Positions 315 to 56,600 of a stretch of 64,000 nucleotides of DNA are shown here, one piece after another. Source of the DNA: Owenia fusiformis. Its lineage: Eukaryota; Annelida; Polychaeta; Sabellida; Oweniidae. The notes below the pieces were generated by a model. The model was not told where the DNA came from, did not search any database, and saw only the letters and a list, made by a program, of their open reading frames with translations. A program made the position numbers and the translations under genes. The first letter of the stretch is position 1. Each line of letters begins with the position of its first letter. The stretch spans positions 18,981,520 to 19,045,519 of the forward strand of contig CAIIXF020000012.1 in the NCBI GenBank assembly GCA_903813345.2. Reading direction: 5' to 3'.

Positions 315-3300
315 GATGAAACAACACCATATGCATTCTTTGTAAATGACACTGAAATAGTGGACAGTTTGGAACAATCATTAGACAATAAAGCATTAGA
401 AGACAGTGAGAAAGTGCTAGAGATTGTGTATCAGCCCCAGGCTGTGTTCCGTGTACGCGCAGTTACTAGGTGTACAAGTAGTATAGAAGGGCATGCAGAG
501 GCAGTTATATCCGCACAGTTCAGTCCCGATGGCAGGTGAGACATGGTCCAATATTTAGATTCATGAATATTCATATCAAATGTAGTTAAAAGTTCTTGTA
601 TCTTGTATCAGAGGCAGTTATATCCGCACAGTTTAGTCCTGATGGCAGGTGAGACTTGGGCCAATATTTAGATTCATGAATATTTATATCAAATGTAGTT
701 AAAAGTTCTTGTATCTTGTATCAGAGGCAGTTATATCCGCACAGTTTAGTCCTGATGGCAGGTGAGACTTGGGCCAATATTTAGATTCATGAATATTCAT
801 ATCAAATGTAGTTAAAAGTTCTTGTATCTTGTATCAGAGGCAGTTATACCCGCACAGTTCAGTCCTGATGGCAGGTGAGACATGGGCCAATATTTAGATT
901 CATGAATATTCACATCTGCAAATGTAGTTAAAAGTTCTTGTATCTTGTATCAGAGGCAGTTATATCCGCACAGTTTAGTCCTGATGGCAGGTGAGACTTG
1001 GGCCAATATTTAGATTCATGAATATTCATATCAAATGTAGTTAAAAGTTCTTGTATCTTGTATCAGAGGCAGTTATACCCGCACAGTTCAGTCCTGATGG
1101 CAGGTGAGACATGGGCCAATATTTAGATTCATGAATATTCACATCTGCAAATGTAGTTAAAAGTTCTTGTATCTTGTATCAGAGGCAGTTATGTCCGCAC
1201 AGTTCAGTCCTGATGGCAGGTGAGACATGGGCCAATATTTAGATTCATGAATATTCACATCTGCAAATGTAGTTAAAAGTTCTTGTATCTTGTATCAGAG
1301 GCAGTTATACCCGCACAGTTTAGTCCTGATGGCAGGTGAGACTTGGGCCAATATTTAGATTCATGAATATTCACATCTGCAAATGTAGTTAAAAGTTCTT
1401 GTATCTTGTATCAGAGGCAGTTATGTCCGCACAGTTCAGTCCTGATGGCAGGTGAGACATGGGCCAATATTTAGATTCAGGAATATTCATATCAAATGTA
1501 GTTAAAAGTTCTTGTATCTTGTATCAGAGGCAGTTATATCCGCACAGTTTAGTCCTGATGGCAGGTGAGACTTGGGCCAATATTTAGATTCATGAATATT
1601 CATATCAAATGTAGTTAAAAGTTCTTGTATCTTGTATCAGAGGCAGTTATACCCTCACAGTTCAGTCCTGATGGCAGGTGAGACATGGGCCAATATTTAG
1701 ATTCATGAATATTCATATCAAATGTAGTTAAGAGTTCTTGTATCTTGTATCAGAGGCAGTTATACCCGCACAGTTCAGTCCTGATGGCAGGTGAGACATG
1801 GGCCAATATTTAGATTCATGAATATATTCACATCAAATGTAGTTAAAAGTTCTTGTATGAAGAACATTCAATTTACACAGGTTTTACTGTACACAAATTG
1901 TTATTCTTCAGGTATCTTGCTAGTGGGTCAGGGGACCAGACAGTTAGATTCTGGGATATTAATACAGAAACACCACATCATACATGCAAAGGTAATACTA
2001 TCCTCATCATCTGATCTGAGGGAAGGTGTCCAAATGTTGTCTGATAAGACAAATTTATGTCAATTCTGCTATGATTTAACTGTCTTTCCCCCACTGCCCC
2101 ATGAAATAAATTTGAAATTATTGTTTTGGATCTACTTTAAAAATAATTGTTCTCATCGCCCCTTTACCAGACATGAATTGACATTTTATTGAAAATATTT
2201 TGTATTAGCTGTTCATTTAGCTATGATAACTATTTATTATTTATGTTATCCAATAAACATAGGATTACAACAACCTAATTTATAATTTCAGCCCATAACT
2301 AAAATTCATTATAGTTTGACTGGTGATAGATAGATGGCATTGTAATCTAGAATGAAAGTGAAAGTACAAGTTAAGACTACAATATACATGTATAACATCA
2401 TTTTAGGTCATAAACACTGGGTGCTGTGTATAGCATGGTCACCTAATGGGAGGAAACTAGCATCTGGGTGCAAAAATAGTCAAGTATGTAATTTACAAAG
2501 GACATTGCAATAATAAATAAATCATTATCCCATCGAACGAAGTTCGGAGGGATATAGGGAACGCCTCCGTCCGTCCGTCCGTCCGTCCGTCCGTCCGTCC
2601 GTCCGTACGTCCGTCCGTCCGTCCGTCCGTCCGTACGTACGTCCGTCTGTCCGTCCGTCCGTCCGGGCAATAACTCAAATATCGTTGGTCCGATTTTATT
2701 CATATTTTGTACACATATACCCTATGGGGGTAGAAGTTCTGCTCGAAAGCCGATTTTCAAAATGGCCGCTTATTTAAAAATGGCGGCCATTTTAGTGCCG
2801 ATTTTACAGTAATTTAGGTGCAATATGTAAAACTGTAATAGCAATATGTTTTAAATGTAAAAAAAATTATATAGGACATTAATAAAGCTAGAAATGTAGA
2901 TATTAAAAAAGCACATGGCAGCCATCTTGAAAAATGGCGGTCTTTACTCGTTATTTTACGATTTTTTGCTGTAACTCGAAAAGTAGTGGAGCGATTTTGT
3001 TCATATTTGGTATGTGAATACTATAAGCATGGCACACTGTCTAATGACACTTTTGGTAGAAGGTGGCCATTTTGAAAAATGGCGGACATTTTGAAAAATG
3101 GCCGCCATTTTAACTTATTTTACTTAAACTCGAAAAGTAGTGGAGGGATTTTGTTCATATTTGGTATGTGAATACGTATAAGCATGGCATACTGTCTAAT
3201 GACACTTTTGGTAGAGGGCGGTCATTTTTGAAAATGGCCGCCATTTTAACATATTTTACTATAACTCGAAAAGTAGTGGAGCGATTTTGTTCATATTCAG

Positions 3301-9300: not shown

Positions 9301-12300
9301 ATTTTACACTCTGTTCTCTTGAAAAACTGATGATATTTTGTGATTTTAATTTTGGGTTTAAAAAGCCAAAGGGGCTGTTTTAATTAGCATATAAAAATGA
9401 TTTAAGTGTTTACTATACATTATACATGTGGGCATGAGTTGGGCTGAAATATGGGACTTAATTTGGTTTTAATGAAATCTTGCACTGAAACTGTTACATT
9501 GAAACCCATGTCCAAATCATAATATTTTGTCATAGATGGCACTTTATATAAATGGTATATCACCTTGCTCAGTTTACATTTTGTTTTACAAAAATGGCAA
9601 GGAACATTTTTGTATTTTGTTAAATTACCAACATGTCTGGAAAAGCAAAATTACAATTCACTCCTCCTGAAATATTGTGGATTTGCCATTCGATATGTTT
9701 CATAAAAGTCAGTATGCTAATGCTTATTACAACCATGGGCTTTCAATTAGATTAGATAGTTGAAAGCCCTTGTCACAACATCTTGCAAATTTAGATCCAA
9801 AAGAAGGGACATAGGACTAATGGACTATATTCATTAAAGGTGCAACAATTAGTGCAGGGGGGCCATTCAACGATCATCGAGCAGTGTCAAAATATATTTA
9901 AGTTTGGATTTTTCAACAAGACTAACATTATATTTTCATTATCTACAAAGAAACCCCCTGGATGAACATTATTTCAGCTGATATTCCTCTTGAAACGTGG
10001 TGGATCTTAAAAATTTATAAGTGGGACTCCCTTTATAGAAGCTTTGAACTGAATTTACACTTCTTAAAGCTGAAATTGATAGTTTATCCATACATTTTAA
10101 GAAAATAGGTATGTCAAAGAAGATGTTAAGCCAAATATTGTCCTGATAGCTCAGAAAAAATAAAAATTTTCAAATTTTCTCTCTACAGTCCTTGTTGCCC
10201 CTTAAATTTGAAATGCAACAGGAAGAAGAGTCCCAACCTGTACAGAAAGTCAAGTTACAATTGAAAAATATAGGACTGTCCGGTAAAAACATAATATATC
10301 CCATATTAAATATATCACTTCAATAATTTTTATAAAACGGGAAATACAATGAAAAAGAGTGAAATGACCAAGGAATGAAATAAAGAGGCATTAGCCAATA
10401 CTTTAATCATTATATAATTGCCAGAAAATCAGGCTTTAAATGATATTTTAGTAAGAAGATATGTAGTTACAGGCAAAGCAACCATCATGATAACTTTCAC
10501 AGGAAACATCAATAAAATAGAAAGTAAAGAACTTTGACCTGTACATGGACAACAACGACAAAAACACCAGCAGCAGCATCATTCAAAGCAATTCATTGAA
10601 AACATTCAAAGTTGTACCAAAAATGAGGAGCAGTGACAAACCATCAGCCTTACGCAGAAATCTGCCCATAATAATAAGCACCATTTTATTGCTTTCATGC
10701 TTTGGGGTGATATATTACACATTTTATCCCTCCATGTCAACATCACTCTTGAAGGACGGATCTGGTGATTTAACGGAAAAAGCTGCAGTAAGTGATCAGA
10801 TTAAGACCATTGATGATAATGATCCACTATTTAGACATAGGGAGACAGATATTATGACAGATGGCGCACCTGTGATGTATGACATAAAACATACCAAGAC
10901 AAAAGATTTAACATTTAGAAATGATTTTAACAACCTTGAACTAGATGCTGGAAGAGTGGAGTATGATTTGCATATTGCTAAAATTTTGAGAAATATTGAA
11001 GACGCTGATAATGTCGGAGGTACATATAACATTGGGACCAATGACAGAGGCGAGCCCATAGGTATCGAAGTTAAAATAAATGGAATAAAAGGTAAAACTT
11101 CAGAAGAGAAAGTACAGATCAGTGATGCACTTAAGAAATCAATGAATAATGATGGCAGCACATTGCATGAAAGTGATAGTATGTCTATAGAAGACCAAAA
11201 GGATGTTGCTGTAACATCACCTGACATAAAGATGACATCAAGATCAGATATGACATCATTATCAGACATGATTGAGACATCACAAGTTCCAAGTTTGACA
11301 TCAGTTGATGCAAGTATGACATCAGAAAGAAGCAGGGCGCCCCATCTTCACATAGTTACGAGTATTCCTATGTTATCAGCAAGTGAAGAGTTGGGCAAAT
11401 TAGGATATGCTTCTTTATCATCGTCACAGCTTTTGCAGCGCCATCTAGAGTTCATGGGGACATTGCAAAATAATCTTAATTTAGACTTTGTTGAGCAAAT
11501 ACACATTTTAACAAACATCATAGATATGAAAATCTATCTTGAAAATGAAAATCTGGACAATTTTGATAAAATATCTGTACATTATATTGATGTTGGTATA
11601 ACCTACAGAGTTATAATGGAATTTATATCTGAAAACTTGGTACATGAATGTGTTGTTTTTATGAATGGAGACATCTATCTGAGTAATGAGTTTACTAGAG
11701 TTAATTCAAGTAAAATGTTGGAGAAACACATTGCGTATGCAATAACACGAATGGGCAATGAAATGAGTGGACTGCCTTTCGTGCAATGTCCAGTGGAGAA
11801 CCTATGCGTGAAGAAATATCATGGTTCCCATGATGCATTTGTATTTGTTTTGGAGGAGCCATTTCCCCAAGATGCATTAGAGAATTTGGATTACCCAATG
11901 AACAAGCTGGGAGCTGAGAATGTCCTTATTTGGCAACTGGAAAAAAAGATGGGCTACACAGTTTTAAATCCTTGTAAAATTTTACGGATTTTCCATAACC
12001 ATTGCTCAAATATCCGTGCCAATTTTACGGTGAATCTCAAAGAAAGGGTAGATACTGGAATGCATGGAAGAGCTCCATATAGTAATTCATTGTATACATA
12101 GGACAAGAGGTTGATTCCCAGAGTTCATTTGATTTTCATACAGTATATTAATGCATGGAAGAGCTCCTTATAGTAATTCATTGTATGCATAGGACAAGAG
12201 GTTGATTCCCAGAGTTCATTCGATTCTCATACATATTAATGCATGGAAGAGCTCCTTATAGTAATTCATTGTATGCATAGGACAAGAGGTTGATTCCCAG

Positions 12301-15300: not shown

Positions 15301-18300
15301 AAATGTCAAGGCAGCCATTTTGGATTTTCTGTCCTAAAATCTTGTCTGTAAAGTCTTGTCTATGCATTTCCAGGTGAACCGTTCTGTAGATCAATTTCAA
15401 ATTTTTAGGGATGATTCTTAGTATGAAAATCTACATCTGATTAGTTTTTTGGCATTCTGGATAAATGTCAAGGCAGCCATTTTGGATTTTCCGTCTTAAA
15501 ATCTTGCCTGTAAAGTCTTGTCTACGCGTTTTTAGGTGAACCGTTTGGTAGATCAATTTCAAATTTTCAGGGATGATTCTTAGTGTGAAAATCTACATCT
15601 GATTAGTTTTTTGGCATTCTGTGTAAATGTCATGGCAGCCATTTTGGGTTTTCTGTCCTAAAATCTTGTCTGTAAAGTCTTGTCTACACGTTTTCAGGTG
15701 AACCATTTGGTAGATCAATGTCATATTTTCAGGGATGATTCTTAGTATGAAAATCTAGGAACAGATTAGTTTTTTGACATTCTGGGTAAATGTCAAGGCA
15801 GCCATTTTGGATTTTCCATCCTAAAATCTTGTCTGTAAAGTCTTGTTTACATGTTTTCTAGTTAACTGTGTGACGGATCAATTAAAATTGTGTTGGTAAA
15901 GTCTTGTCTACTCATTTTCAGGATAACCGTTTGATGGGATCACCCATTGGTGGGGACATTTTGTACACATTTGTGTTCTTGTTTCAGTGTTGATTTTGAA
16001 GTTGTGATATTAATTTCTCCATTTTCATCAAATAGTGATAATGGAGGGAACATCGTCTGGCAGAGCAAACTTGTTAGCTGCGCATGATCTATCTGGCAGT
16101 GATACGACATCTTGCATGCATGGAATTGGCAAGCTAACAGTTCTGAAGGTATTAAATAGATACTCACTCACTAACTTGGGAGATGTCAATGCAGACATGA
16201 CTGAAGTTGAGAAAACTTCAACAGAATTTGTTTCTAGATGTTATGGAATTACACCTAAAGTCACAGACAAAATATCTGATGTGAGATATGCTGTATGGGC
16301 AAAGAAAATGCTGCAAAACACATTACAAATGCACCAAAGCTAAAATCCCTCCCACCAACAACAGAAGCATTTTCCCAGCATGGGAAGCGAGCTTATTTCC
16401 AAGTAGCTATATGGAAAAATGCTAATATGCCTGACCCCCCACTTATCCTTCCAACAGATTATGGTTGGGAAATTAACAGCACGGGCTCCCTTTTCCCAAC
16501 AATGCCCAAGGATACACCCTTGGCCCCTGAAGGAATTCTCCAGCTCATTAAGTGCACATGTGCATCATAGGGCAAGGTATGTAGAACTGGGCGATGTTCA
16601 TGCTCCAAGGCATCTTTATCATGCACATTGTTCTGTGTTTGCAAGGGGAATGAATGCAATAACCAACATACAAAGACAGTAACTGAACAGGAATTGGAAG
16701 AAACTGATGAAGATTTATTGAGGGAAATCCTTGATGAAATCTTAGTAAAAGAAGATAATTCATAAATTCAAGATATATATAGCACCAAGAAATGACCCTT
16801 GTGGAACATCATTATTATTATGTAGGTTACTTTTTACTCATTTCAGATATTTTATATGTGAGAAAGAGATCATAATCAGATGTATTTAGTATTATTTATT
16901 GATAATTTTGTAGGAAACACTAATATCAATTTGATATTATCACAGAATGAGACATTTCATAAATTGTAAGGTTGGCGGCCATCTTGAATTTTTTTTTATT
17001 TTTGTCAAGAAACATTTCTGGAACCTATTATATTGGTATACATCATATTAAAACTCTATAATAGAAAAAACAGCAAGATATGTTTATGTGTATGCTAGTT
17101 TTCTGTTCTAATATGCTGGCAAAAATACATAAAACGTGTGAAAATTCAAAATGGCCACCAAAAAAATTCCTCAAGGATGCCCGTTGGGCATCCGACAGTT
17201 TCTGAATATGGATATCATGTTTAAACAGAAAATGCAAAAAAAGTTCATATAATAAGCATTTCCACCTCTATTGGCTCTACATCCAGACTAGTATTTGACA
17301 AGAATCAGTACACTTTCTTTACAATAAAAAATCCAAATTAAAGTTTTATTTGTACGAAAGTATGGAAAAATGATTTGTCTCAAAAATACACTTTTTTCTA
17401 GAATATTCAGATTTCAGTTGATTCTGACAGAATTATTCCTTGGAAATCAAATGATATTTTTATGCAAAAGTGTATAGTGAATTTTTACTACCCAAACTTT
17501 CAGAAAATATTTATAGAATCTTCATTCATTAAAATATACTAGTAGTACATTGAAATTGAGAAAATCAATGGTAAATAGATAACATTCAAAATTTATGAAC
17601 AAGCTCTTTCTCTATTGGTCAAATATTCAACTGCAGCCAATTTGTTCATTGATGAATACAAATTATAATTATATGTATATTATATTAGTAAATAGATAGA
17701 TAAATAAATGTAATAGTTACAGTAGAATCAAAACATGTCAATTTACTTTGTGATAACCCTGTACATGTATTATAATACTTGTAGTACAGGCGGTGCAAAT
17801 CTGAAGTCAAAGGGAATATAAGTTTTTTACTAACAAGTGACAATGATTTTCACAGTTTCATTCACAAACTATTTTTAGGGAAAACAGTATGCATTTATCG
17901 ATCATGATAAGATTACAGTATGATTTTTATGTCAACTCCAAAAATCGGTGACATATTGTTATGGCCTCCATTTTTTGATTAATCGCAATATGTACATTAA
18001 CAGGGTTAACCCATAGTATAGTATGTCATTTAAGTTTTAGACAGATTCAACCAACACTTTTTGGTAAATCTTGAAATTAAGTGACTATTGCAAGTTTTTA
18101 ACATTGAGGTCTATGGCAGTCTGGTCCAACCAAAACAAAAAAAGTGATGACAACTATGTATTTAGTCTTATTCAGCTTTATATACCAAGTTAGCAACTCC
18201 CTTATCAGGGGCAAAGCCAGCAAATGTGCAGGGTGGAGTGAATTTGTGGGGTTTGCCCCCACAAATTAAAAAAAATTTACATGTACATTGTATATGGTGC

Positions 18301-21300
18301 ATTCTAAGCATTTCAAACCATAATTTGTTAATCACTACTTCTCCCTGGCTGTGCCCATGCTTATTAAAACATTTGACACTAAAAGCATCTTTCAGAAGTT
18401 AATCTTTACTCTTCTGACTGAATTTTGAATCTTTTATCAGACCGCTGGGAGAATCATGTAGTCATCGTGATGTTGGCAGCCTAGTGACATTCCATTGTAA
18501 TTCTGAGAAATCAACCACCAGACTCATTTCAAGTTCATGCTGATGTTAGATGTTACCAACTGCTATTTCATGCGAAGTCTATTCCAGGAAAAACACTCAT
18601 TAGATTTAGTTCAAATTCCTACTACTAATTCCTACAACTGATTAACCTTTCGGCACCAACATCGGAACAGATAGTAGAGTTGTCCTGAAAACATCCCCCC
18701 ACACTATGTATTGAGTTAACTTCCAAGCATTTTTATATCCTTATATACAGAGAGTGGGAGGGGGGTATTTTCTTTTCAGTACAACTCTGTGCTTGGTTTT
18801 TCTTGACATCATTTTGTAACTACTAGTTGCTTTGATCTAGATTCTGCCTGACGCCTTGTTGTAAAATAACTTCACACTGTGACGCATGTCGTTCTTGTCC
18901 TTTTAGATGAAGAGTTACAGAAGATGGCACAAGAACGTTACAACAATTCACGATTAGTGAGTATTATTCTCAAAAAGGTTGTGGTGCATTATATTGCAGT
19001 TTACATCATTATAATAGGTTTCATAATCAGCTGTCCTTCTTTGAATGTACCGAAAGTAAATATATGATAGCTGGTAATGGTAACTCATTTCACCAAATGA
19101 ACCAATCAGAGTCTACTAAAACTCTACTTCTGGTAACTCAAGGCCAAATGAACCAATCAGAGTCTACTAAGACTTCACTTCCTCTCAAGATGAGTTGGAG
19201 CAATCTGCGTGAGGTTCCTTTTTTACTTGGCTCTGTTTTTCACACATGCGCAAAAATGGAAGAACATTATTCTCATGATTCAAATAATTTTTCTGCAATT
19301 GGTTCGGTTTTAGTATGTTCACGAAAGTTTATTGCCAAGGCATTAAGAACATACATTGAAGTTGGGAGTTATTTATTTTTATACTAAATGAGAATATTCT
19401 CGCGCTGTGAAATGATGAACGAATTTGACATCTGTATAAAAATTCATGTAGTTATTATCTTATTAATCATAAATGCCTTTAAATAATTTGAGCTACATGT
19501 AATTAAATTGATGGATTAAACATTTTAAATGCACATGTGCCAAAACTAAATCAAAAAATGGAACCTCATGCAGATTGCCCCTAGTGACCCTATCAGTATC
19601 TAAACCCAAGTACACAATCCTTTATGTAAGGGATAAAGGTTCATGAAAGTGTATGCTTATTGTTACATGATTATTTTCAGGGTGAAGATTCAGAGCGTCT
19701 TGTATCTGGATCAGACGACTTCACCTTATTCCTGTGGCATCCAGAAACTGAGAAAAAACCAATAGCTAGAATGACTGGACACGCTCAATTGATCAATGAA
19801 GTCTTGTTTTCACCTGATACTCGAACTATAGCCAGTGCTTCATTTGATAAATCTATTAAATTATGGGATGGAAAAACAGGAAAGTGAGTATTCTGTGATT
19901 GATCTGTAAAAAACTAGGGCATGCTGGGTAAATTTCTTGATGGTCGTTTTGAATTTATCAATAAAAAATAAGGAGAATATTTGGGAGTGAGGAATTGATT
20001 ATCCCAATGAATGAAGTTTGGTAGGGATATAGTGAAGCCCTCCATCCATCTGTCTGTCCGGAAGATAATCAAATACGAGGGCACAGATTTCCTTCATGCT
20101 AGGTAAAGAAAACTTACAAAATGGCTGCCGCTTTAAAATTATACTCAAATGAAAGGCAGTAGATTGCAAATTGTAAATATTGTATCGTTTTTCTGATTTG
20201 GGCCTAGTAAAATTCAAAATGGCTGCCTAATGTCGGATTTCGCAATAATTTTCTGATCTCTTCAAAGTTGCTTTATTATACTCAACATTCTTAAGTAAAC
20301 TTCAAAATATGATTACATTATACTCAATTAGATCTCAAACATTGCATTGTCTATAATTTGTGCCTCTCAAAATTGGAATATCTACCAATTTACTCAAGGG
20401 TAGAATAGATGGTAAATAATAAATATTACATTGTGACATGATAGATTCATGAATATAGTGTTCGTTTGGATTTGCTACTCCATGGAAATGCCAATTCACA
20501 CTGGAATAGCCTGACAACGGTAAAGTCAGATACCATTGTCACAAATGGCGGACATAACAGTCACTTCAATTAGATTTTCCTGAACTGTATGTTTAGTAGA
20601 GCACCTAGCAAATTCCTTTGGAACAACAATCAATCGAAATGTCTTTATACTCATTGTACAGTTAATGATATTCTACCATCGAAATAAAGTCTTTAATTTA
20701 ACCGATCAAAATGAGACACTGGACAACGGACACTGTATTACCATATGCCGTTGTCTTTGTAAATTATTTCAAATTCAGATTCCGTTGTCATTGATGATAT
20801 CGAAGACTGCTATATTGTGGTGATTCATGACCCAATTTGATTGAAATTGGGATTTCATATGATACATCATCACAAGAGCTTATTACATGCACAGAATTAA
20901 GGACAATAAAATCCCATGAAATTATGACCAAGTGATTAAAGAGTTGAAGCGACGGTTATGTCCACCATTTGTGACAACAGTATCTGACTTTGCCGTTGTC
21001 AGGCTATTCCGGTGTGAATTTGAGATGCCAAGTGACTGAGTACATGTATTCTCATTGTCCTTTCAGATATCTGACTTCACTCAGGGGACATGTTAGCAGA
21101 GTCTACCAAATATCCTGGTCAGCTGATAGTAGATTACTCTGTAGCGGCTCTTCAGATTCCACTTTAAAAGTTTGGGATATGAAAACCAAAAAGCTGCTAA
21201 ATGATTTACCAGGACATGCAGATGAGGTCAGTATGAGTATCCCCATCAGAAATCTGGAATAAACAATTGACAGATTGGATATTATACAAATATTGAATCT

Positions 21301-40175: not shown

Positions 40176-40664
40176 ATCTGCTTGATCTATTGTGGGTTAC
40201 ACATCCGGACTTGTGATCTTCTTTAAAATCTACCCTTTGTTATCAAACTAGTAAAAACTTGCCTTTATTACTAATATAGCTCAAGGGGCAGCACTATCAA
40301 CTGTGATAATATATTGCTTGGCATTTAACTCTTACCCTGAGGTCTGGTGGCTAGTTGAATTACTACCCTCTGAGGCCAAAGTTTAAGACAGATAATCACA
40401 TACAGTAGTTTTAATACCAATGAGATCGTAATGGCCACAAATGTAGCTGTTTATTGGAGTTTTATTGAAAAGTGTAACTCATAATATGTTCGAGAATATA
40501 AAACTCAGAAATTTGAATTCCCCTTGGCTCGAGATCTACCTTCAACATAACACAGTCAGACCTCCACACACTAATATATTGTAGCATTCCAAATTGTTAA
40601 GCAAAATAAACATAAATTACACATCCCAAATATGAAAATGTCAAGGGTTAAAATAAATTGTATG

Positions 40665-40800
40665 TAAATGTACTTTCAATAAATTGTATGTTACTTTCAA
40701 TGAATTGTATGTAATATATACTTTCTATGAATTGTGTATTACATGTACTTTCTAAGAATTATATATGTTGTATGTACTTTCGATGAATAATTGTGTATCT
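40665..40800 (+). repeat. Old ~28-bp repeats resembling the intronic part of the 95-bp unit
   Basis: About five diverged copies of tactttcaatgaattgtatg with variable spacers lie upstream of the large array. They match the intronic half of the 95-bp unit but have no exon part. They are probably the older substrate from which the array grew. Confidence 0.65.
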
Positions 40801-41125
40801 CATACTTGAGTGGGTTTGGGGTAGATATCACCCGGGATTCAATATATATCGTATCTGAGGAGCGGGCAGGATATATTGTATATGTCCCGCTCCAGGCCAA
40901 ATGCAGGCAGATATAATATATCCATCCCGCTCCCGGGAATTTTTCAAAAGTTTAAAAAAGTTTAAATATCAAAAGTTTTAATTTTTTAATTTTAAAATTT
41001 AATTTTTTTTAAGTTTAAATGTTACAATTTCATTGTATTGAACAAAAAGAATATTACGAAATTGTTAAATATAAATATCTTGTCATTTGAAAAAGGTGGA
41101 AAAGGTTATATCTACCCTAAACCCA
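40798..41125. repeat. Inverse copy of the 32190-32330 repeat, splitting the minisatellite
   Basis: tctcatacttgagtgggttt, gaggagcgggcaggatatat and ggatatattgtatatgtccc are the reverse complement of the copy in the KMT5A intron. A second partial end (acccactcaagtatgagata) occurs at 41115, so the element may have ended there. It interrupts the tactttcaatgaattgtatg repeats. Confidence 0.65.
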
Positions 41126-41146
41126 CTCAAGTATGAGATACACCAG

Positions 41147-41222
41147 TTATGCACGGTCGGTTTGGATACATGGAATATCCCTCGGGATATTCCCTGTATC
41201 CAAAACCTCCCAGTGCATAACC
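41147..41222. repeat. Hairpin with gttatgcac / gtgcataac ends
   Basis: The arm tttggatacatggaatatccc pairs with gggatattccctgtatccaaa, flanked by gttatgcac and gtgcataac. It resembles the hairpin at 4018-4158. Confidence 0.6.
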
Positions 41223-41254
41223 CCTATATATGTACTTGCAAAGAATTGTATATG

Positions 41255-44200
41255 TACTTTCAGTGAATTGTAATGTTATATACTTTCAGTAATGATGACA
41301 GGGTAGGTGACCATGGATGATGTGGACCTGTTTTCTCAGGCTCTTATGTACTTTCAATGAATTGTATGATATATATACTTTCAGTAATGATGACAGGGTA
41401 GGTGACCATGGATGATGTGGACCTGTTTTCTCAGGCTCTTATGTACTTTCAATGAATTGTATGATATATATACTTTCAGTAATGATGACAGGGTAGGTGA
41501 CCATGGATGATGTGGACCTGTTTTCTCAGGCTCTTATGTACTTTCAATGAATTGTATGTTATATGTACTTTCAGTAATGATGACAGGGTAGGTGACCATG
41601 GATGATGTGGACCTGTTTTCTCAGGCTCTTATGTACTTTCAATGAATTGTATGTTATATATACTTTCAGTAATGATGACAGGGTAGGTGACCATGGATGA
41701 TGTGGACCTGTTTTCTCAGGCTCTTATGTACTTTAAATGAATTGTATGTTATATGTACTTTCAGTAATGATGACAGGGTAGGTGACCATGGATGATGTGG
41801 ACCTGTTTTCTCAGGCTCTTTTGTACTTTAAATGAATTGTATGTTATATATACTTTCAGTAATGATGACAGGGTAGGTGACCATGGATGATGTGGACCTG
41901 TTTTCTCAGGCTCTTTTGTACTTTCAATGAATTGTATGTTATATATACTTTCAGTAATGGTGACAGGGTAGGTGACCATGGATGATGTGGACCTGTTTTC
42001 TCAGGCTCTTTTGTACTTTAAATGAATTGTATGTTATATGTACTTTCAGTAATGATGACAGGGTAGGTGACCATGGATGATGTGGACCTGTTTTCTCAGG
42101 CTCTTTTGTACTTTAAATGAATTGTATGTTATATGTACTTTCAGTAATGATGACAGGGTAGGTGACCATGGATGATGTGGACCTGTTTTCTCAGGCTCTT
42201 TTGTACTTTAAATGAATTGTATGTTATATATACTTTCAGTAATGATGACAGGGTAGGTGACCATGGATGATGTGGACCTGTTTTCTCAGGCTCTTTTGTA
42301 CTTTAAATGAATTGTATGTTATATGTACTTTCAGTAATGATGACAGGGTAGGTGACCATGGATGATGTGGACCTGTTTTCTCAGGCTCTTTTGTACTTTA
42401 AATGAATTGTATGTTATATATACTTTCAGTAATGATGACAGGGTAGGTGACCATGGATGATGTGGACCTGTTTTCTCAGGCTCTTATGTACTTTCAATGA
42501 ATTGTATGTTATATATACTTTCAGTAATGATGACAGGGTAGGTGACCATGGATGATGTGGACCTGTTTTCTCAGGCTCTTATGTACTTTCAGTGAATTGT
42601 ATGTTATATATACTTTCAGTAATGATGACAGGGTAGGTGACCATGGATGATGTGGACCTGTTTTCTCAGGCTCTTATGTACTTTCAATGAATTGTATGTT
42701 ATATATACTTTCAGTAATGATGACAGGGTAGGTGACCATGGATGATGTGGACCTGTTTTCTCAGGCTCTTTTGTACTTTAAATGAATTGTATGTTATATA
42801 TACTTTCAGTAATGATGACAGGGTAGGTGACCATGGATGATGTGGACCTGTTTTCTCAGGCTCTTATGTACTTTCAATGAATTGTATGTTATATGTACTT
42901 TCAGTAATGATGACAGGGTAGGTGACCATGGATGATGTGGACCTGTTTTCTCAGGCTCTTTTGTACTTTAAATGAATTGTATGTTATATGTACTTTCAGT
43001 AATGATGACAGGGTAGGTGACCATGGATGATGTGGACCTGTTTTCTCAGGCTCTTTTGTACTTTAAATGAATTGTATGTTATATATACTTTCAGTAATGA
43101 TGACAGGGTAGGTGACCATGGATGATGTGGACCTGTTTTCTCAGGCTCTTTTGTACTTTAAATGAATTGTATGTTATATATACTTTCAGTAATGATGACA
43201 GGGTAGGTGACCATGGATGATGTGGACCTGTTTTCTCAGGCTCTTATGTACTTTCAGTGAATTGTATGTTATATATACTTTCAGTAATGATGACAGGGTA
43301 GGTGACCATGGATGATGTGGACCTGTTTTCTCAGGCTCTTATGTACTTTCAATGAATTGTATGTTATATATACTTTCAGTAATGATGACAGGGTAGGTGA
43401 CCATGGATGATGTGGACCTGTTTTCTCAGGCTCTTTTGTACTTTAAATGAATTGTATGTTATATATACTTTCAGTAATGATGACAGGGTAGGTGACCATG
43501 GATGATGTGGACCTGTTTTCTCAGGCCCTTATGTACTTTAAATGAATTGTATGTTATATGTACTTTCAGTAATGATGACAGGGTAGGTGACCATGGATGA
43601 TGTGGACCTGTTTTCTCAGGCTCTTATGTACTTTCAGTGAATTGTATGTTATATATACTTTCAGTAATGATGACAGGGTAGGTGACCATGGATGATGTGG
43701 ACCTGTTTTCTCAGGCTCTTATGTACTTTCAATGAATTGTATGTTATATATACTTTCAGTAATGATGACAGGGTAGGTGACCATGGATGATGTGGACCTG
43801 TTTTCTCAGGCTCTTTTGTACTTTAAATGAATTGTATGTTATATATACTTTCAGTAATGATGACAGGGTAGGTGACCATGGATGATGTGGACCTGTTTTC
43901 TCAGGCCCTTATGTACTTTAAATGAATTGTATGTTATATGTACTTTCAGTAATGATGACAGGGTAGGTGACCATGGATGATGTGGACCTGTTTTCTCAGG
44001 CTCTTATGTACTTTCAATGAATTGTATGTTATATATACTTTCAGTAATGATGACAGGGTAGGTGACCATGGATGATGTGGACCTGTTTTCTCAGGCTCTT
44101 TTGTACTTTAAATGAATTGTATGTTATATATACTTTCAGTAATGATGACAGGGTAGGTGACCATGGATGATGTGGACCTGTTTTCTCAGGCTCTTATGTA

Positions 44201-47200
44201 CTTTCAATGAATTGTATGTTATATATACTTTCAGTAATGATGACAGGGTAGGTGACCATGGATGATGTGGACCTGTTTTCTCAGGCTCTTATGTACTTTC
44301 AATGAATTGTATGTTATATATACTTTCAGTAATGATGACAGGGTAGGTGACCATGGATGATGTGGACCTGTTTTCTCAGGCTCTTATGTACTTTCAGTGA
44401 ATTGTATGTTATATGTACTTTCAGTAATGATGACAGGGTAGGTGACCATGGATGATGTGGACCTGTTTTCTCAGGCTCTTATGTACTTTCAGTGAATTGT
44501 ATGTTATATGTACTTTCAGTAATGATGACAGGGTAGGTGACCATGGATGATGTGGACCTGTTTTCTCAGGCTCTTATGTACTTTCAATGAATTGTATGTT
44601 ATATATACTTTCAGTAATGATGACAGGGTAGGTGACCATGGATGATGTGGACCTGTTTTCTCAGGCTCTTATGTACTTTCAATGAATTGTATGTTATATA
44701 TACTTTCAGTAATGATGACAGGGTAGGTGACCATGGATGATGTGGACCTGTTTTCTCAGGCTCTTATGTACTTTCAATGAATTGTATGATATATATACTT
44801 TCAGTAATGATGACAGGGTAGGTGACCATGGATGATGTGGACCTGTTTTCTCAGGCTCTTATGTACTTTCAATGAATTGTATGTTATATATACTTTCAGT
44901 AATGATGACAGGGTAGGTGACCATGGATGATGTGGACCTGTTTTCTCAGGCTCTTATGTACTTTAAATGAATTGTATGTTATATGTACTTTCAGTAATGA
45001 TGACAGGGTAGGTGACCATGGATGATGTGGACCTGTTTTCTCAGGCTCTTTTGTACTTTAAATGAATTGTATGTTATATATACTTTCAGTAATGATGACA
45101 GGGTAGGTGACCATGGATGATATGGACCTGTTTTCTCAGGCTCTTTTGTACTTTAAATGAATTGTATGTTATATGTACTTTCAGTAATGATGACAGGGTA
45201 GGTGACCATGGATGATGTGGACCTGTTTTCTCAGGCTCTTATGTACTTTCAATGAATTGTATGTTATATATACTTTCAGTAATGATGACAGGGTAGGTGA
45301 CCATGGATGATGTGGACCTGTTTTCTCAGGCTCTTTTGTACTTTAAATGAATTGTATGTTATATATACTTTCAGTAATGATGACAGGGTAGGTGACCATG
45401 GATGATGTGGACCTGTTTTCTCAGGCTCTTATGTACTTTCAGTGAATTGTATGTTATATATACTTTCAGTAATGATGACAGGGTAGGTGACCATGGATGA
45501 TGTGGACCTGTTTTCTCAGGCTCTTATGTACTTTCAATGAATTGTATGTTATATATACTTTCAGTAATGATGACAGGGTAGGTGACCATGGATGATGTGG
45601 ACCTGTTTTCTCAGGCTCTTTTGTACTTTAAATGAATTGTATGTTATATATACTTTCAGTAATGATGACAGGGTAGGTGACCATGGATGATGTGGACCTG
45701 TTTTCTCAGGCCCTTATGTACTTTAAATGAATTGTATGTTATATGTACTTTCAGTAATGATGACAGGGTAGGTGACCATGGATGATGTGGACCTGTTTTC
45801 TCAGGCTCTTTTGTACTTTCAATGAATTGTATGTTATATATACTTTCAGTAATGACGACAGGGTAGGTGACCATGGATGATGTGGACCTGTTTTCTCAGG
45901 CTCTTATGTACTTTCAGTGAATTGTATGTTATATATACTTTCAGTAATGATGACAGGGTAGGTGACCATGGATGATGTGGACCTGTTTTCTCAGGCTCTT
46001 ATGTACTTTCAGTGAATTGTATGTTATATATACTTTCAGTAATGATGACAGGGTACGGTGACCATGGATGATGTGGACCTGTTTTCTCAGGCTCTTATGT
46101 ACTTTCAATGAATTGTATGTTATATATACTTTCAGTAATGATGACAGGGTAGGTGACCATGGATGATGTGGACCTGTTTTCTCAGGCTCTTATGTACTTT
46201 CAATGAATTGTATGTTATATATACTTTCAGTAATGATGACAGGGTAGGTGACCATGGATGATGTGGACCTGTTTTCTCAGGCTCTTATGTACTTTCAATG
46301 AATTGTATGTTATATATACTTTCAGTAATGATGACAGGGTAGGTGACCATGGATGATGTGGACCTGTTTTCTCAGGCTCTTATGTACTTTCAATGAATTG
46401 TATGTTATATATACTTTCAGTAATGATGACAGGGTAGGTGACCATGGATGATGTGGACCTGTTTTCTCAGGCTCTTATGTACTTTCAATGAATTGTATGT
46501 TATGTACTTTCAGTAATGATGACAGGGTAGGTGACCATGGATGATGTGGACCTGTTTTCTCAGGCTCTTATGTACTTTCAATGGATTGTATGTTATTTAT
46601 ACTTTCAGTAATGGTGACAGGGTAGGTGACCATGGATGATGTGGACCTGTTTTCTCAGGCTCTTATGTACTTTAAATGAATTGTATGTTATATGTACTTT
46701 CAGTAATGATGACAGGGTAGGTGACCATGGATGATGTGGACCTGTTTTCTCAGGCTCTTATGTACTTTCAATGAATTGTATACTATATACTTTCAGTAAT
46801 GATGACAGGGTAGGTGACCATGGATGATGTGGACCTGTTTTCTCAGGCTCTTATGTACTTTCAATGAATTGTATGTTATATATACTTTCAGTAATGATGA
46901 CAGGGTAGGTGACCATGGATGATGTGGACCTGTTTTCTCAGGCTCTTATGTACTTTAAATGAATTGTATGTTATATATACTTTCAGTAATGATGACAGGG
47001 TAGGTGACCATGGATGATGTGGACCTGTTTTCTCAGGCTCTTATGTACTTTAAATGAATTGTATGTTATATGTACTTTCAGTAATGATGACAGGGTAGGT
47101 GACCATGGATGATGTGGACCTGTTTTCTCAGGCTCTTATGTACTTTCAATGAATTGTATGTTATATATACTTTCAGTAATGATGACAGGGTAGGTGACCA

Positions 47201-47612
47201 TGGATGATGTGGACCTGTTTTCTCAGGCTCTTATGTACTTTCAATGAATTGTATGTTATATATACTTTCAGTAATGATGACAGGGTAGGTGACCATGGAT
47301 GATGTGGACCTGTTTTCTCAGGCTCTTATGTACTTTCAATGAATTGTATGTTATATATACTTTCAGTAATGATGACAGGGTAGGTGACCATGGATGATGT
47401 GGACCTGTTTTCTCAGGCTCTTATGTACTTTCAATGAATTGTATGTTATATATACTTTCAGTAATGATGACAGGGTAGGTGACCATGGATGATGTGGACC
47501 TGTTTTCTCAGGCTCTTATGTACTTTCAATGAATTGTATGTTATATATACTTTCAGTAATGATGACAGGGTAGGTGACCATGGATGATGTGGACCTGTTT
47601 TCTCAGGCTCTT
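41255..47612 (+). repeat. About 67-copy array of a 95-bp unit bearing the SBNO1 acceptor and start codon
   Basis: The anchor gacagggtaggtgaccatgg recurs every 95 bp from about 41297 to 47564, about 67 times, with only a few 1-5 bp indels. Each unit has tatactttcag (an acceptor), taatgatgacagggtaggtg, the start codon in the context gaccATGG, twelve codons [12 protein letters not shown], and then tactttcaatgaattgtatg, which closes the frame with TGA. Only the last unit runs on into the SBNO1 coding exon. Units vary at a few positions (cttatg or cttttg, caatga or aaatga or cagtga, atata or atgta). A 380-bp higher-order block bearing ggcccttatg recurs at 43525, 43905 and 45710. Confidence 0.97.
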
Positions 47613-50600
47613 ATGCAACTGACAGAGGTGAACAAGGCGCACGAGGAATACTTGGTAAGATATGAAGAACTAGTGTACATTTATAAGTCACATACATGTA
47701 TTTTGCATTTGTAAGTAGGGTTAATAAACTTGCATTGATTGTTTTGAATCTTTTTTATGTCACCACCAAGGCAACATATTGTAATGGTCTCCAACTGTTT
47801 TTGTGGACGATTGTCAGGGTGTGTAACAAATAATTGTAACAAAATCTTACAACTTCCAATAGTTTAAAAAGCGCTGTTAAGGCTGACTTCAATTTTTTCC
47901 AAAATCATCTACTAGTTTTTGGAAGTTCAAATCTGATTTTAAATATACGCTTTGAGCCTCAATAACCTTCTTAAGGACAAAAAGGTTTCAACTTGCTTCA
48001 CATTGACTAATTTCTTTTTTTCTAAAACTTCTCAGAAGTTCAAATTGGACTTTAGTTTTCAGTGTTTTGGGAGGTTACCTTTGGTTGTCTTTCAGTGACC
48101 TTCGAAAGGTGGTGACGTTTTGTCATATTAATGCCTTGTTTATTATTATTATTTATAGCTGGCTCTCATCACTGAATTTATCATTTGATTTTAGTTATTT
48201 TCCTCTAGTCTAATGGCTTTAAAACAATTGGTCTTTATATCTTTTCTTATATTTATTCAACCACTTTTGGGTCTCAATTAGTAATTTATTAGTTAAACTA
48301 ACTGCAAATGAGCAAGAAACCTCAATGGATCTCTAGTTTTCTGGAGCGTATTGTAAAACGTTGACAAAGAATTTCACAACTGGTTCATCGTTTGAAAAAA
48401 AACCATTTATTTTTATTCCTTTTATTTTCAGAAACATCAACCCGAGCCACAAAATGAGCCAGAACAACCAATCAAAGAAGAGCCAGAAATCAAAGATGAA
48501 CCACAAAAAACATCAGCTCCTGTTGAACCCCCACCCATAAATACATCTAAACCTGTAGTGAGGCATACAACTTTGATAGACCCGCCTCCTTTACGAACAA
48601 ACCCAGAGCAGTTCATAGAGAATGGCTCTCATAAACCAGAAATCAAAAATGAAACGGGTAGTATTAATGTTAAGCCAAAACAAGGCAGTGCTGAAGCTGG
48701 GCCAGGTGGTGGGCATGAAGGAGGAATTCTTCAGCAGGCAATGTCAGAATTGTTTTCACCCAATGACTTCAATGTAGATGCTCCAGTGGCTGCTGCCCCG
48801 GGGCCAAATCTGGTCCCTAACACACTGGTTCAACAGAATCAAGGAATTAAACGTGTGCAATCAGCCCCAAATTTTCAACAACAATATACTAATAGCCTGT
48901 TGAATTCTGGAATGAGAGGGCAACTTAATCAGCCAATTAGAGGACAGTTCAATCAACCAGTCAGAGGCCAGCATAATCAGCTAATTACAGGCCAGCTTAA
49001 TCAGCAAATCAGAGGCCAGCTTAATCAGCCAATCAGAGGCCAGCTTAATCAGCCAATCAGAGGCCAGCTTAAGCAGCCACAGATATTAACTGTTGTGCCT
49101 GGTCCTGATGGGAAAGGCCGAGTAATAAAACGTGAAAACTATAATCCTGCTATGGGTAGGCCGGCTAATAGCTCAATAACTCAGGGAGGTATTAGACTCC
49201 TAGGGCCCCAGGGACAGCACCTCAACAAAGTCATTGTAAATCATAGTCCAACAAACTCCAGATCAAATTCTCCTGTGCCGCAGGTTTATTCTATGAACAA
49301 TAACTCCAATATAAGACTTGCACATGCCACCAGCCATGGGTCTGGTGTGAAAGTATTACAAATGAACCCTCAATCAGCATTGGGAGTAAACAATGGAGTG
49401 AAGACACAGCTTACAAATAAAGACGTCTCTAGGATATGGGCAAATGAAGAAGTTTCAATCAAGGAAATAGCGGTAAGTTTGGAATTTGGAATTTGAGACC
49501 TCATAATGTTATGGTCATGTTTTGAAGTAGGGGTGGGACGGAACAGAAAAATTTAGGAACGGGACGGAACGGTATTTAGACCTTCGGAACGGAACATTTT
49601 CGGAACGGAACAGAATTTACTCATAATACAGTAGAACATTGCATGTTGTTTATAGTTATCATGTCAAAACAAACACTTTATATATTTCAAACTTTAAAAA
49701 CCAGTGTACATGGCTTGGAAAATGTAGATTATATGTTTTGCATGCAGTTTTATTGTTCTGCCTTACCTCATCCAGTCTTGGGAAACCAAAGTGCTCCCAC
49801 ACTGAGCTCTTGAGGTTTTTTGGAGCATTTTCTATCGTAAAAGTTTCACTCAGTGCTGCCATTATAGGGAGCCTACGAAGTCAAACTTGAAATGAAACGA
49901 ATTAAATATTTTGAAACAAAGGTAAAAGATCGCGATGATTGAAATATTATTCATATACACTACACAATTGATATGATAATATAGTTATTCTTCATCGAAC
50001 GGGATTTATCAGATCGTCCACTACCGCTATATTTAATCAATAAATATTGATTGTTTTCATTTGCTAAAGTTATAGTTCTAGGGCATACTGACTCTTCAAA
50101 TTTGGAGGAGAATCGATTGTAAGTTTTAAAATTATTTTTGATTTTAGACAAAATCGGCTTATTTACTATCTAATTGGTGGAAAAATACTGAGTTTGAGGT
50201 GTCTTGTCCCGTTCCGAAAGTGCTTCCTCGTGTTCCGATACCGAACCCAAATACCGCGGAACGGAACAATTTCGGGTAACCGTCCCACCCCTATTTTGAA
50301 GTGAAAGATATTGGGGAGATATTGAAATCTAAAATCTTAAAATTATATAGAAACCCCAGAAAATTGGGCAGTTACTACTTTTTGCAAGGCCTGACTTCGT
50401 CGCTAACATGCTAAATATAAGAGTTAGCTGACGTTTGGGAGTCTGACTTACCTTCTAAAGGTTAGAACCCGAATCTTAGATGAAACCATATCACCTTTGT
50501 TGCGTCGATGATGATGCATAAACATAGCATTTGATAGAAATTAGTGTAAATGCTTTTCCGACTTTTTCATTTTTCATCAATGTTGACTTTCGGGAAGGCG

Positions 50601-53600: not shown

Positions 53601-56600
53601 TACTAAGGTGATGCAAGTTTGCATATATTCAATTATGTATTTCACTCCAATTCATATTCATGTATTTCGGTGTATTTCAATTCATATTTCTGTATTTCAG
53701 TTCAAATACATGAAGATCTCTTCGAAGGAAAATAACAGTGTTAAGAAAGGTGTTATATTCTCAACCTACTCATCCCTTATTGGAGAAAGTTCTTCATCAA
53801 GTAGTAAATACAGGACACGATTCAAGCAGCTGGTGCATTGGCTCGGACATGAGTTTGATGGAACTGTATCCTTAGATTATGTAATATTGATTTAAAAGAT
53901 TCATTTATGAGTTTTCCACCAGATTTCCACCAAATGTGATATATAATATTTAGTAGAAGGGTGAAAAAATGCTGTTTTGTGAACAGTGGGGAAATCATGA
54001 AATTGTGATTTGCTATGTTTTCATTAAGGGTTCCACATTGCTGTGAATCATGTAAGAAAAAGTGCACTTAATATTTCAACCTTAACTTGATCAGATTATA
54101 TTTGATGAATGTCATCGTGCCAAGAACCTCTGTCCAACAGGCTCCTCTAAGCCAACAAAGACTGGCTTAACAGTCCTGGAACTTCAGAAGAAACTGCCCA
54201 AGGCTAGGGTGATCTATGCAAGTGCCACAGGTAGAGGAAATTAACTGTGTATCTTACAAATTTGCTCAGTACACTGCATAAGAAGAAGAAAATTTATTTT
54301 CTCTTAAATTTTTATTTGGCATACCTTAAGGACAAACTCCAGAGTGCCAACCCCAAGAAGATAATTTTAAGCAATTCAAATTGTTTAAAATATGGAACTG
54401 TTGTATTGAGATATATTTCAGTACTTATATTAATGCAAAGGATTCTCAAAGAGATTTCACCAGAAGCTCTACTTACATATGTAACTTCTGGAATTATGGG
54501 CCAAAGAAACTCCTTTCCCAGAGTCCAATGCAACTGAATTCCATGATCATTCTTTACACTTCTAGGTGCCTCAGAACCACGAAATATGGCTTATATGACA
54601 CGGCTGGGGCTATGGGGAAAAGACACACCCTTTCCAGAGTTCAATGATTTTATAATGGCTGTAGAACGACGTGGTGTAGGTGCCATGGAATTGGTTGCTA
54701 TGGAGATGAAGCTTCGAGGCTTATATATCGCTAGGCAGCTCAGTTTTCATGGGGTAACATTCCGTATTGAGGAAGTCCCTATTGAGAAAAGCTATGCGAA
54801 GATCTACAACGAGGCTGTGAGCTTGGTAAGTTATCTCTATGTATTTTCACCTATTTTTTAATATATCCCTGCTTCTATTCCTCTTATTAATAGTACACAA
54901 GAAATTCCTGAAATAAATGATAAAATAGGAATAATCATATTTGAATATTTACATGTATATAGCTGTTGGGACAATTCAGTTAGTGAATTATTATTAAATT
55001 TTCTTGTCACCACCAAGGAGTAATCAGAATGGGAGTGTTGCAATTGCTCCAGTTTTCCGCATTTTATTAATAAATGCCTTGTTATACCAATTTCAGTGGG
55101 TAGATGCAAGAGAGAAATTCCAGATGGCTGCAGATCTGATAGATGCTGAACATAGGATGAGGAAAACTATGTGGGGACAGTTCTGGTCCTCGCATCAACG
55201 ATTCTTCAAGTATCTCTGTATATCGGCCAAAGTCAACTACTGCGTGAAACTGGCTAGAGAGGCTGTAAAGAATGGCAAGGTATGTAGGTTTTGTTTGTTG
55301 AACAAAGTATTTGATTTTTTTGAATATATATATTTAGCCTTTATGCTCATTTCCAGAATAAAGAAGGAATCTGGAGGTGAACTGACAGACTTTGTGTCAC
55401 CCTGTATATTAAATTATTTGTTATTTCAGCGTATTGTGATTGGTCTCCAGTCTACAGGGGAGGCAAGAACTCTGCATGAAACAGCTTGATGAATGTGGGG
55501 TGAACTAACAGATTTTGTCTCACCCTGTATAAAATAAATTATTTGTTATTATTTCAGTGTATTGTGTTTGGTCTCCAGTTTACAGGGGAGGGAAGAACTC
55601 TGCATGAAACAGCTTGATGAATGTGGGGGTGAACTAACAGATTTTGTCTCACCCTGTATAAAATAAACTATTTGTTATTTCAGTGTGTTGTGATTGGTCT
55701 CCAGTCTACAGGGGAGGCAAGAACTCTGGAACAGCTAGAAGAATGTGGGGGTGAACTCACAGACTTTGTGTCAACTGCCAAGTAAGCAAATACCTGTTTT
55801 ATCAGATGGCTATTTTATCAATAGTTCATTTTAGATTATAAAACGAAAGACTACCATTTGAGGGTTTCAATTTATCATATAAGCTCGATCTCTTTTACAA
55901 AAACGGAAGTATATGTATTGAAATAATAAAAGTACTTACATGTTCTCTATTTCAGAGGTGTATTCCAGTCATTAATAGAGAAACATTTCCCTGCTCCTGA
56001 CAGGCGTAAAACCCTCAATGATTTATTTGGCACTGGGGGTTATAGCAGCATGCTGCAGGAGGTCTTGGATGAAACTGAACCTGGACGAAAGAGAAAAGCT
56101 CAAGCTAAAGGTACATACCTATTGGAAAAGAAAAGTAATTGAATTTCTTGGAATTTCTTAAGTATTTTTTCTTCTTGTCGTACTTCCACTGTTTTCTTAG
56201 TAGTTTTTAATTTGTGTGCCAAATCCAAAGAAATGGTCTAGACTGCTGTAAGAGTTCACATATTTTCAATTTCCAGAAATGTCTGCAAAGAGGGCTAAAA
56301 TGCGAGGTGCTTCAAGCGATTCAGGAAGTGACTCTTCAGACAGTGATAATCAGAGCTCTTCAGAAAAGGAGGAAACTGAGGAGTCAGAGAAGTCGTCTGC
56401 TTCAGAGAGTGAGGATGATGACTTCAACCCATTTGGAAATGGCTCTGATAGTGATGAAGGTATGCTATACATGTAACATTGATGTGAAATTATTATTTTT
56501 ATAGCACTTCACGCGTGATTAAATAAATATTTGTTAAAATATGAAAAAGGTAGCAAAGCCTGCCCACGTGTATGCACATCTTTGGAGCAATCGAGTAAGA

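Follow-up and report, generated by a model that had tools for sequence, protein, structure and literature searches.

A 95-bp tandem array across the intron-exon boundary of SBNO1 in the annelid Owenia fusiformis, with arrays of like anatomy at other exons of the genome

In the open-access literature, descriptions of boundary-spanning arrays were found for lancelets (PMC3087553, PMC3902484), and further papers there mention mirages. The units of the lancelet mirages (Adh3, the globins BflGb6 and BflGb9, troponin C and PGBD5) span an exon-intron boundary together with its splice signals, either boundary may be hit, and the authentic copy is the one next to the exon. The arrays of the O. fusiformis genome are built likewise. 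The unit lengths overlap, with 10-72 bp in lancelet Adh3 and 150-160 bp in the globins (PMC3087553), 60 and 108 bp in PGBD5, and 67-128 bp over the arrays of this genome. The copies reported number 6 and 3 in BflGb6 and 2-7 in PGBD5 (two assemblies), against 67, 57, 23 and 12 here. The phylum differs, an annelid in place of lancelets, and one of the present arrays includes a start codon. Regular splicing (PMC3087553, PMC3902484; by RT-PCR for the globins) and length instability are reported for lancelet mirages, whereas the present account is drawn from sequence alone.

The window, that is, the whole stretch of 64,000 nucleotides that was analysed, contains the following features at the start of SBNO1.

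41251..47615, plus strand: 95-bp tandem array of 67 units (Tandem Repeats Finder, unit list)
47557..47654, plus strand: true first coding exon of SBNO1, 98 nt, contiguous with the last unit (sequence, phase-0 join)
48432..49496, plus strand: second coding exon of SBNO1 (open frame; TTTTCAG acceptor before 48432)

The gene downstream of the array is strawberry notch (SBNO1), as a preliminary description of this DNA had named it. Four downstream open frames gave Pfam matches to AAA_34 (E-values of 4.4e-23 and 1.2e-35) and to Helicase_C_4, 'C-terminal domain on Strawberry notch homologue' (9e-23 and 3.5e-16). NCBIfam returned only matches far below its cut-off. The first coding exon has its acceptor AG at 47555-47556, its ATG at 47580 and its donor GTAAGA at 47655. 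The open reading frame of the last unit continues into this exon, which joins exon 2 at 48432 in phase 0 and in frame; the donor of exon 2 lies upstream of 49496, where the open frame ends. Because the frame runs into exon 2, the start context is ACCATGG and an in-frame TAG lies just upstream, we infer that the first 12 residues of the last-unit frame are the natural N-terminus of SBNO1.

When Tandem Repeats Finder was applied to the 64-kb window, the array was reported with a period of 95, 67.0 copies and 98 % matches, and the search by exon core gave 67 units as well, which bears out the earlier count of about 67 repeats before the real exon. The units run head-to-tail and comprise 18 distinct sequences. 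Nearly all are 95 bp long: in the exon-core search 64 have this length (including the first, which was trimmed to 95 bp by the script), two have 93 bp and one has 96 bp. Each unit consists of the last 36 bp or so of the intron, with the acceptor TTTCAG, followed by a 23-bp leader and the first SBNO1 codons. An acceptor and an ATG had been described for every unit, and both the TTTCAG ahead of the exon start and the ACCATGG start with its ATG are intact in 67/67. The further statement that every unit carries the first 12 codons is true of 47 decoys (the decoys being the 66 units before the last); codon 12 is ATG in 47/66 and TTG in 19/66, and Met replaces Val4 in one decoy. Closure of the decoy frames after 15 codons was likewise too general by a single unit, as it occurs in 65/66 and unit 56 (ATG at 46537) closes after 24 codons. 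A four-codon ORF lies directly upstream of the start in 66/67 units. Each unit also carries a donor-like AGG/GTAGGT, with 3.58 bits versus 3.39 bits for the true exon donor TTG/GTAAGA in a rough score that uses human-type weights. Through this GTAGGT, pseudo-exons of 13 or 108 nt may be possible between the decoys.

We consider the SBNO1 array to be a boundary-spanning minisatellite ('mirage') that is probably near-neutral and whose splicing would be resolved by exon definition with the last copy (probability about 80 %). As in a mirage, the units span the boundary with a splice signal (67/67), the true exon is contiguous with the last unit, the edge copy keeps an intact frame in the three arrays of the window (the three in which the frame was followed), and donor and acceptor boundaries are both affected in one genome. 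The repeated segment covers the end of the intron and the start of the first coding exon, and 4 bp (TATG) at the unit junction are common to exon and intron. The first duplication may have arisen at this TATG microhomology, and the array would then have grown via replication slippage and unequal exchange. Exon definition would select the acceptor that is fused to the true exon. The 66 decoys would be treated as intron and the array would be close to neutral, because the last acceptor is the only one with a complete exon and that exon's donor nearby (98 nt). In large introns, the reported preference is for those splice sites that are nearest to each other across the exon (PMC9225289). We infer that the last SBNO1 acceptor is the one used.

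Two explanations had been offered in the preliminary description: tuning of SBNO1 translation, or a tolerated structure in which only the last acceptor is used. The second appears better supported, because the last acceptor alone leads into a complete exon with the donor at 47655, and because the decoys appear to be without measurable coding constraint and the lancelet cases reportedly splice regularly. In the SBNO1 array alone, 5/59 exon-derived and 6/36 intron-derived columns are variable (p 0.32; the exon side is somewhat less variable), and in four pooled arrays 19/196 versus 16/192 (Fisher p 0.72), in a test with little power as the units are 98 % alike. CHK1 (10/65 exon versus 0/4 intron), the NLE1 116-bp class (3/37 versus 1/79), the units off the modal length and the second SBNO1 array were kept outside the pool. 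Neither of these low-power comparisons supports selection on the exon-derived half of the SBNO1 units.

Within the array, a five-unit block is present twice (units 21-25 and 44-48), a length reached in 10/300 shuffles, and the resemblance between adjacent units exceeds that in shuffled arrays only slightly (lag 1, z -1.93). With regard to the concerted evolution expected within a mirage, from which its edge units would be exempt, the first unit is a singleton type but the last five units are identical to the commonest type. When the unit was compared with its own genome, the best-scoring candidates held 68 matches, all on one sequence of the assembly (C12); 67 of them are the array itself and the 68th is a partial match of 39 bases at window positions 40687-40725. 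No second copy or allele of the array was found in this search (best-scoring candidates; one haplotype in the assembly). Polymorphism of the array length is plausible; 6 and 3 units are given for two haplotypes of a lancelet globin (PMC3087553).

As judged by anatomy, a boundary array is not peculiar to SBNO1. Six such arrays were found: two at SBNO1 and one at an NLE1-like gene within the window, and one each at an AGC-type kinase, AKT and CHK1 elsewhere, the last three being named from protein or domain matches. The additional arrays of the window are as follows.

55367..55773, plus strand: second SBNO1 array, 128-bp unit, 3.3 copies, three acceptors (Tandem Repeats Finder, translations)
496..1858, plus strand: Notchless-like (NLE1) array, 113/116-bp unit, 12 copies, donor side (Tandem Repeats Finder, donor count)

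The second SBNO1 array has decoy exon starts at 55430 and 55558, both of which run into stops in translation, and the true start at 55684 with a donor at 55782. In the NLE1-like array the true donor GT at 536 is followed by 11 decoy donors, and the next exon starts at 1912, in frame. No further copy of this array was found in the own-genome search. The name is based on an NLE domain match on 309-539 below the curated cut-off (19.8 of 23.4 bits) and in part on exon 19630-19887, which matches WD40 proteins, Notchless protein homolog 1 among them, and is assumed to belong to this gene. The arrays elsewhere have 23 copies (AGC-type kinase), 4 copies (AKT) and 57 donors (CHK1). Over long stretches, the CHK1 units are in frame with one another.

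Donors are affected in the NLE1-like and CHK1 arrays, and acceptors in both SBNO1 arrays, AKT and the AGC-type kinase. In 6/6 arrays the copy that continues into the remainder of the exon is at the exon edge, which is partly by construction since the units contain part-exons; the true copy would be the first in donor arrays and the last in acceptor arrays. Junction matches were computed in three of the six arrays with breakpoints placed by eye, and shared bases numbered 4 (SBNO1), 4 (AGC-type kinase) and 9 (AKT). The junctions seen by eye have little or no match and an extra CTTGTAT in NLE1, and a match of about two bases in CHK1. A process like that proposed for SBNO1 may have acted at these other exons, on donors and on acceptors.

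The 17 loci outside the window were hand-picked from shorter matches further down the kinase match list. The 28 kinase loci with the highest scores, most of them long open frames, were free of arrays across the kinase match. When arrays with a period of at least 40 and at least 3 copies were counted in the window and the 17 loci, after removal of five rows that belong to a dispersed 162-bp tandem family, 6 of the 10 unique arrays spanned a recognised coding boundary (5/9 without the SBNO1 starting array). If one boundary per 300 bp to one per 1000 bp is assumed, P for a 95-bp unit ranges from 0.12 to 0.0007, exons being recognised only where a known protein matched. The 17 loci alone gave 3/6 (P 0.29 to 0.014 under the assumed densities). 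These counts are suggestive of an enrichment of arrays at exon boundaries. The wider proposal, that boundaries are preferred birthplaces of minisatellites genome-wide and that very many arrays with tens of near-identical splice sites exist, including the 57 donors of CHK1, we regard as rather doubtful. If it were true, a mutation process would be aimed at boundaries, the spliceosome would reliably pick one of dozens of near-identical sites by position alone, and some arrays would leak and yield length-dependent isoforms.

A regulatory role was considered for the SBNO1 array, in which some transcripts would use upstream acceptors or 108-nt unit exons, the short ORFs would lower SBNO1 translation or trigger decay, and the array length would act as a dose. 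The intact acceptors and starts (67/67), the upstream four-codon ORF kept in 66/67 units and the donor-like GTAGGT, as strong as the true donor by the rough score, would all fit such a role. However, intactness is expected at 98 % homogeneity, and the exon part of the units carries no sign of selection in the low-power test. A like structure is also found on other exons, including internal ones, where a role in the 5' leader is inapplicable. Because it occurs at unrelated exons and on donors as well as acceptors, the array is probably no SBNO1 device, and the sole support here for a possible tuning of SBNO1 translation is the presence of the start codons. We therefore regard a regulatory array as an unlikely explanation.

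It is highly improbable that the assembler expanded the repeat at a locus that in truth has only one or a few units. Array length is uncertain in any assembly, and in one draft genome a lancelet mirage was misassembled (PMC3087553), but the 18 unit types, the recurring block and the distinct first unit argue against such an expansion, as do the five other arrays, each with different units. The 6.4 kb of the array are also within the span of long reads (read N50 of 25.75-30.75 kb for Owenia in PMC9977687, if the same assembly is meant). That the main SBNO1 message starts from another first exon, with the array in a minor 5' end, has a very slim chance of being correct: an upstream exon and promoter were not found and an in-frame ATG lies inside exon 2, but the frame of exon 1 is open, its start context is strong and its donor matches the phase of exon 2, features that would not have to persist in a dead exon.

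Under the preferred reading as a near-neutral minisatellite, the array can also be set beside other systems with repeated splice-competent sequence. Mutually exclusive exons of the Dscam type likewise place many similar splice sites in a row, and each of their units is a complete, diverged coding exon. Unlike these, the units described here are near-identical partial exons, with stops in both SBNO1 arrays. The unit of the intronic VNTR of ABCA7 reportedly contains no exon boundary itself, unlike the SBNO1 unit. This VNTR resembles the SBNO1 array as a tandem repeat in an intron that possibly affects splicing (PMC5954066). Intron gain by tandem duplication of exon pieces, as presented in PMC2891723 and PMC4974935, shares the local copying of splice-competent sequence; it creates a new intron, whereas here an existing intron would have grown. 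No new intron is evident at SBNO1: the repeats sit to the intron side of a single boundary, and the reading frame continues from exon 1 into exon 2.

Such arrays, with as many as 67 acceptors or 57 donors that are nearly identical, can serve as natural experiments in which the sequence is near constant and position alone varies. Exclusive use of the edge copy would mean that the choice is made by position across the exon; otherwise, array length would be a genetic dial. The arrays also illustrate one way for introns to grow and the extent to which decoy splice sites are tolerated in a genome, and they can mislead gene prediction and read mapping. Their occurrence in an annelid would extend mirages beyond lancelets, as more than a lancelet peculiarity. 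Among marker proteins searched for in the genome, the annelid erythrocruorin linker domain gave 3 matches on C6 (best E-value 5e-7, one of them with an internal stop) and none in 14 prokaryote control genomes. COX1 gave no match, and neither did mollusc haemocyanin, in a search that matched none of its controls either. Hemerythrin was not found, which is slightly at odds with an annelid, as many annelids have this protein, although the gene may be missed when exons are searched singly.

Two features were observed in the intron upstream of the array.

40652..41276, plus strand: degenerate 21-27 bp repeats, TACTTTCAATGAATTGTATGT-like (repeat search, partial unit match, Tandem Repeats Finder)
40793..41143, no strand assigned: MITE-like element with 40-nt terminal inverted repeats, 95 % complementary (repeat search)

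The intron half of the SBNO1 unit appears to derive from these 21-27 bp repeats. The stretch is split by the inverted-repeat element, which belongs to a dispersed family (own-genome matches, 40 scored out of 767 candidates).

When the sequence in front of the first coding exon of SBNO1 was analyzed by tandem-repeat detection, the preliminary description of about 67 units of 95 bp was confirmed: 67 units lie head to tail and the last of them runs unbroken into the true exon. Each unit begins with the AT-rich end of the intron (about 36 bp, acceptor included), continues with a 23-bp leader and then reaches ACCATGG, which opens the coding frame. Counted by the exon core, 64 units are 95 bp long (the first of them as trimmed by the counting script), two are 93 bp and one is 96 bp. 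There are 18 distinct unit sequences, the commonest with 23 copies. When the unit was compared with the own genome, 68 matches were scored, namely the 67 array units and one partial match to old intron repeats just upstream.

Arrays and related features in the window
41251-47615, plus strand: SBNO1 array, 67 units, period 95 (tandem-repeat detection)
47580-47654, plus strand: SBNO1 first coding exon from its ATG, 25 codons (frame and donor sequence)
40793-41143: element with 40-nt inverted ends, within the SBNO1 intron repeat tract
55367-55773, plus strand: second SBNO1 array, acceptor side, 128-bp unit, 3.3 copies (tandem-repeat detection)
496-1858, plus strand: Notchless-like (NLE1) array, exon end and donor, 12 copies (12 donors counted)

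As had been stated, the acceptor (TTTCAG) and an intact ATG are present in all 67 units. The claim that every decoy, or unit other than the last, closes after 15 codons holds for 65 of the 66 and fails for unit 56 (24 codons). Likewise, the first 12 codons are not repeated in every unit, as codon 12 is ATG in 47 decoys but TTG in 19. A four-codon ORF directly 5' of the start is retained in 66/67 units. The assignment to SBNO1 was borne out by four downstream open frames matching AAA_34 or Helicase_C_4, the strawberry notch domains of Pfam. The first coding exon ends at the donor GTAAGA (47655) and connects in phase 0 with the next exon (48432). The N-terminus is assigned provisionally from the frame, the start context and an in-frame stop just upstream; an upstream exon and promoter of SBNO1 were not found. 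The exon 2 open frame also contains a coding minisatellite (48911-49079; seven 24-bp GQLNQPIR-like repeats).

Two other arrays in the window have the same arrangement. In the second SBNO1 array, acceptors end at 55429, 55557 and 55683; the true exon opens at the third, and the first two run into stops. In the case of the NLE1-like array, the frame continues from the first donor (536) into the exon at 1912 as ...SPDGR-YLASGSGDQTVRFWD, and read-through beyond this donor hits a stop immediately. The name NLE1 is tentative, as it rests on a sub-threshold NLE domain match and on a WD40 exon (19630-19887) that is assumed to be part of this gene and whose matches include Notchless protein homolog 1 as well as other WD40 proteins. 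Between the NLE1-like exons lies a 475-codon open frame on the minus strand (6627-8054) without Pfam match, P2X-receptor-like by eye. An 88-bp unit in five copies (12059-12510) begins within the final codons of an open frame of 526 codons (10521-12101; no Pfam match). This may be another such array, located where a coding region ends.

In each of the three window arrays, the reading frame is preserved through the copy at the exon edge. When four arrays were pooled, variable columns numbered 19/196 in exon-derived and 16/192 in intron-derived sequence (p 0.72), and the decoys are thus under no measurable coding constraint. The spliceosome would pick whichever copy lies closest to the splice site at the opposite end of the exon: the last one in an acceptor array, the first one in a donor array. 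In large introns, a preference of this kind is reported for alternative sites (PMC9225289). Speaking against this reading, each SBNO1 unit also carries a donor-like AGG/GTAGGT, which a rough score with human-type weights rates at about the strength of the true donor, and pseudo-exons built from the units are therefore possible. Most likely, the array is close to neutral for SBNO1.

The observation at SBNO1 is correct and not trivial, but the array belongs to a type that has already been described, the mirage. Lancelet mirages are tandem repeats over exon-intron boundaries, known from Adh3 and the globins BflGb6 (two haplotypes, 6 vs 3 units) and BflGb9, for which regular splicing and unstable cluster length are reported (PMC3087553). 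Others are found in troponin C and in PGBD5, where two assemblies differ (60-bp unit, 2 or 7 copies; 108-bp unit, 3 or 6), and the same paper states that Adh and troponin C mirages produce no aberrant mRNAs (PMC3902484). The Owenia fusiformis arrays share this anatomy at the sequence level; the host species, the number of copies and the start codon inside the unit are new. In its domain content the genome looks annelid, with three matches to the annelid erythrocruorin linker domain; hemerythrin gave no match, which counts slightly the other way. The openly accessible literature searched yielded no report of mirages beyond lancelets.

Generality was tested on 17 stretches of 9.5 kb and one of 2.2 kb around shorter kinase matches elsewhere in the genome. 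Three of the 17 contain a boundary-spanning array (1.9 per 100 kb; Poisson 95% interval 0.4-5.4); no array lies across the kinase match in the 28 best-scoring loci. An AGC-type kinase exon (best PDB matches CBK1 and ROCK; presumably MAST-like) has a 67-bp unit with 23 acceptors, and an AKT exon (RAC-beta kinase in PDB, E 7.2e-63) a 113-bp unit with four. The third is CHK1 (PDB match, E 8.4e-25):

G000:C10:729482-733409 (stretches L045 7083-9501 and L049), minus strand: CHK1 donor array, 69-bp (23-codon) unit, 57 matches, one partial

Its unit comprises 65 nt of exon plus GTAA, and the exon's authentic end is the 5'-most copy. The units are mutually in frame, with a 253-codon open stretch from the L045 edge to a shortened unit, and use of later donors would insert multiples of 23 residues. 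The interest of the SBNO1 array lies in its copy number and in the hint of a genome-wide habit; a preference of arrays for exon boundaries is suggested. Separately, one kinase exon, GSK3-like by eye, occurs in two diverged adjacent versions (L048 897-1206, within G000:C10:2256000-2258200), both flanked by splice-like borders; the pair looks like mutually exclusive exons.

As for origin, exon and intron share four bases at the unit junction in SBNO1 (TATG), four in the AGC-type kinase and nine in AKT by computation on these three arrays. Inspection by eye suggests about two shared bases for CHK1, and for NLE1 little homology together with an additional CTTGTAT. The computed matches are consistent with a start of the SBNO1, AGC-type and AKT arrays by duplication at microhomology. 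Growth would have proceeded by slippage or unequal exchange, since variants common to several SBNO1 units are scattered along the array, a five-unit block (units 21-25) reappears at 44-48 (such length was reached in 10/300 shuffles) and five identical units stand at the exon end. Adjacent units resemble each other only slightly more than expected by chance (z -1.93). The SBNO1 intron also contains degenerate repeats of 21-27 bp that resemble the intron half of the unit; they are split by the inverted-end element, which belongs to a dispersed family (40 matches scored of 767 candidates). An almost perfect inverted repeat of 21 nt, with 2 nt in the loop, lies just 5' of the array (41161-41204). 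Another tandem repeat, dispersed and with a unit of 162 bp (GCCATTTTGGATTTTCCGTCC...), was also observed at several unlinked places, in the window and in three kinase stretches:

window 14989-15858; L035 6826-8156; L042 8868-9500; L046 1200-3607: 162-bp tandem family
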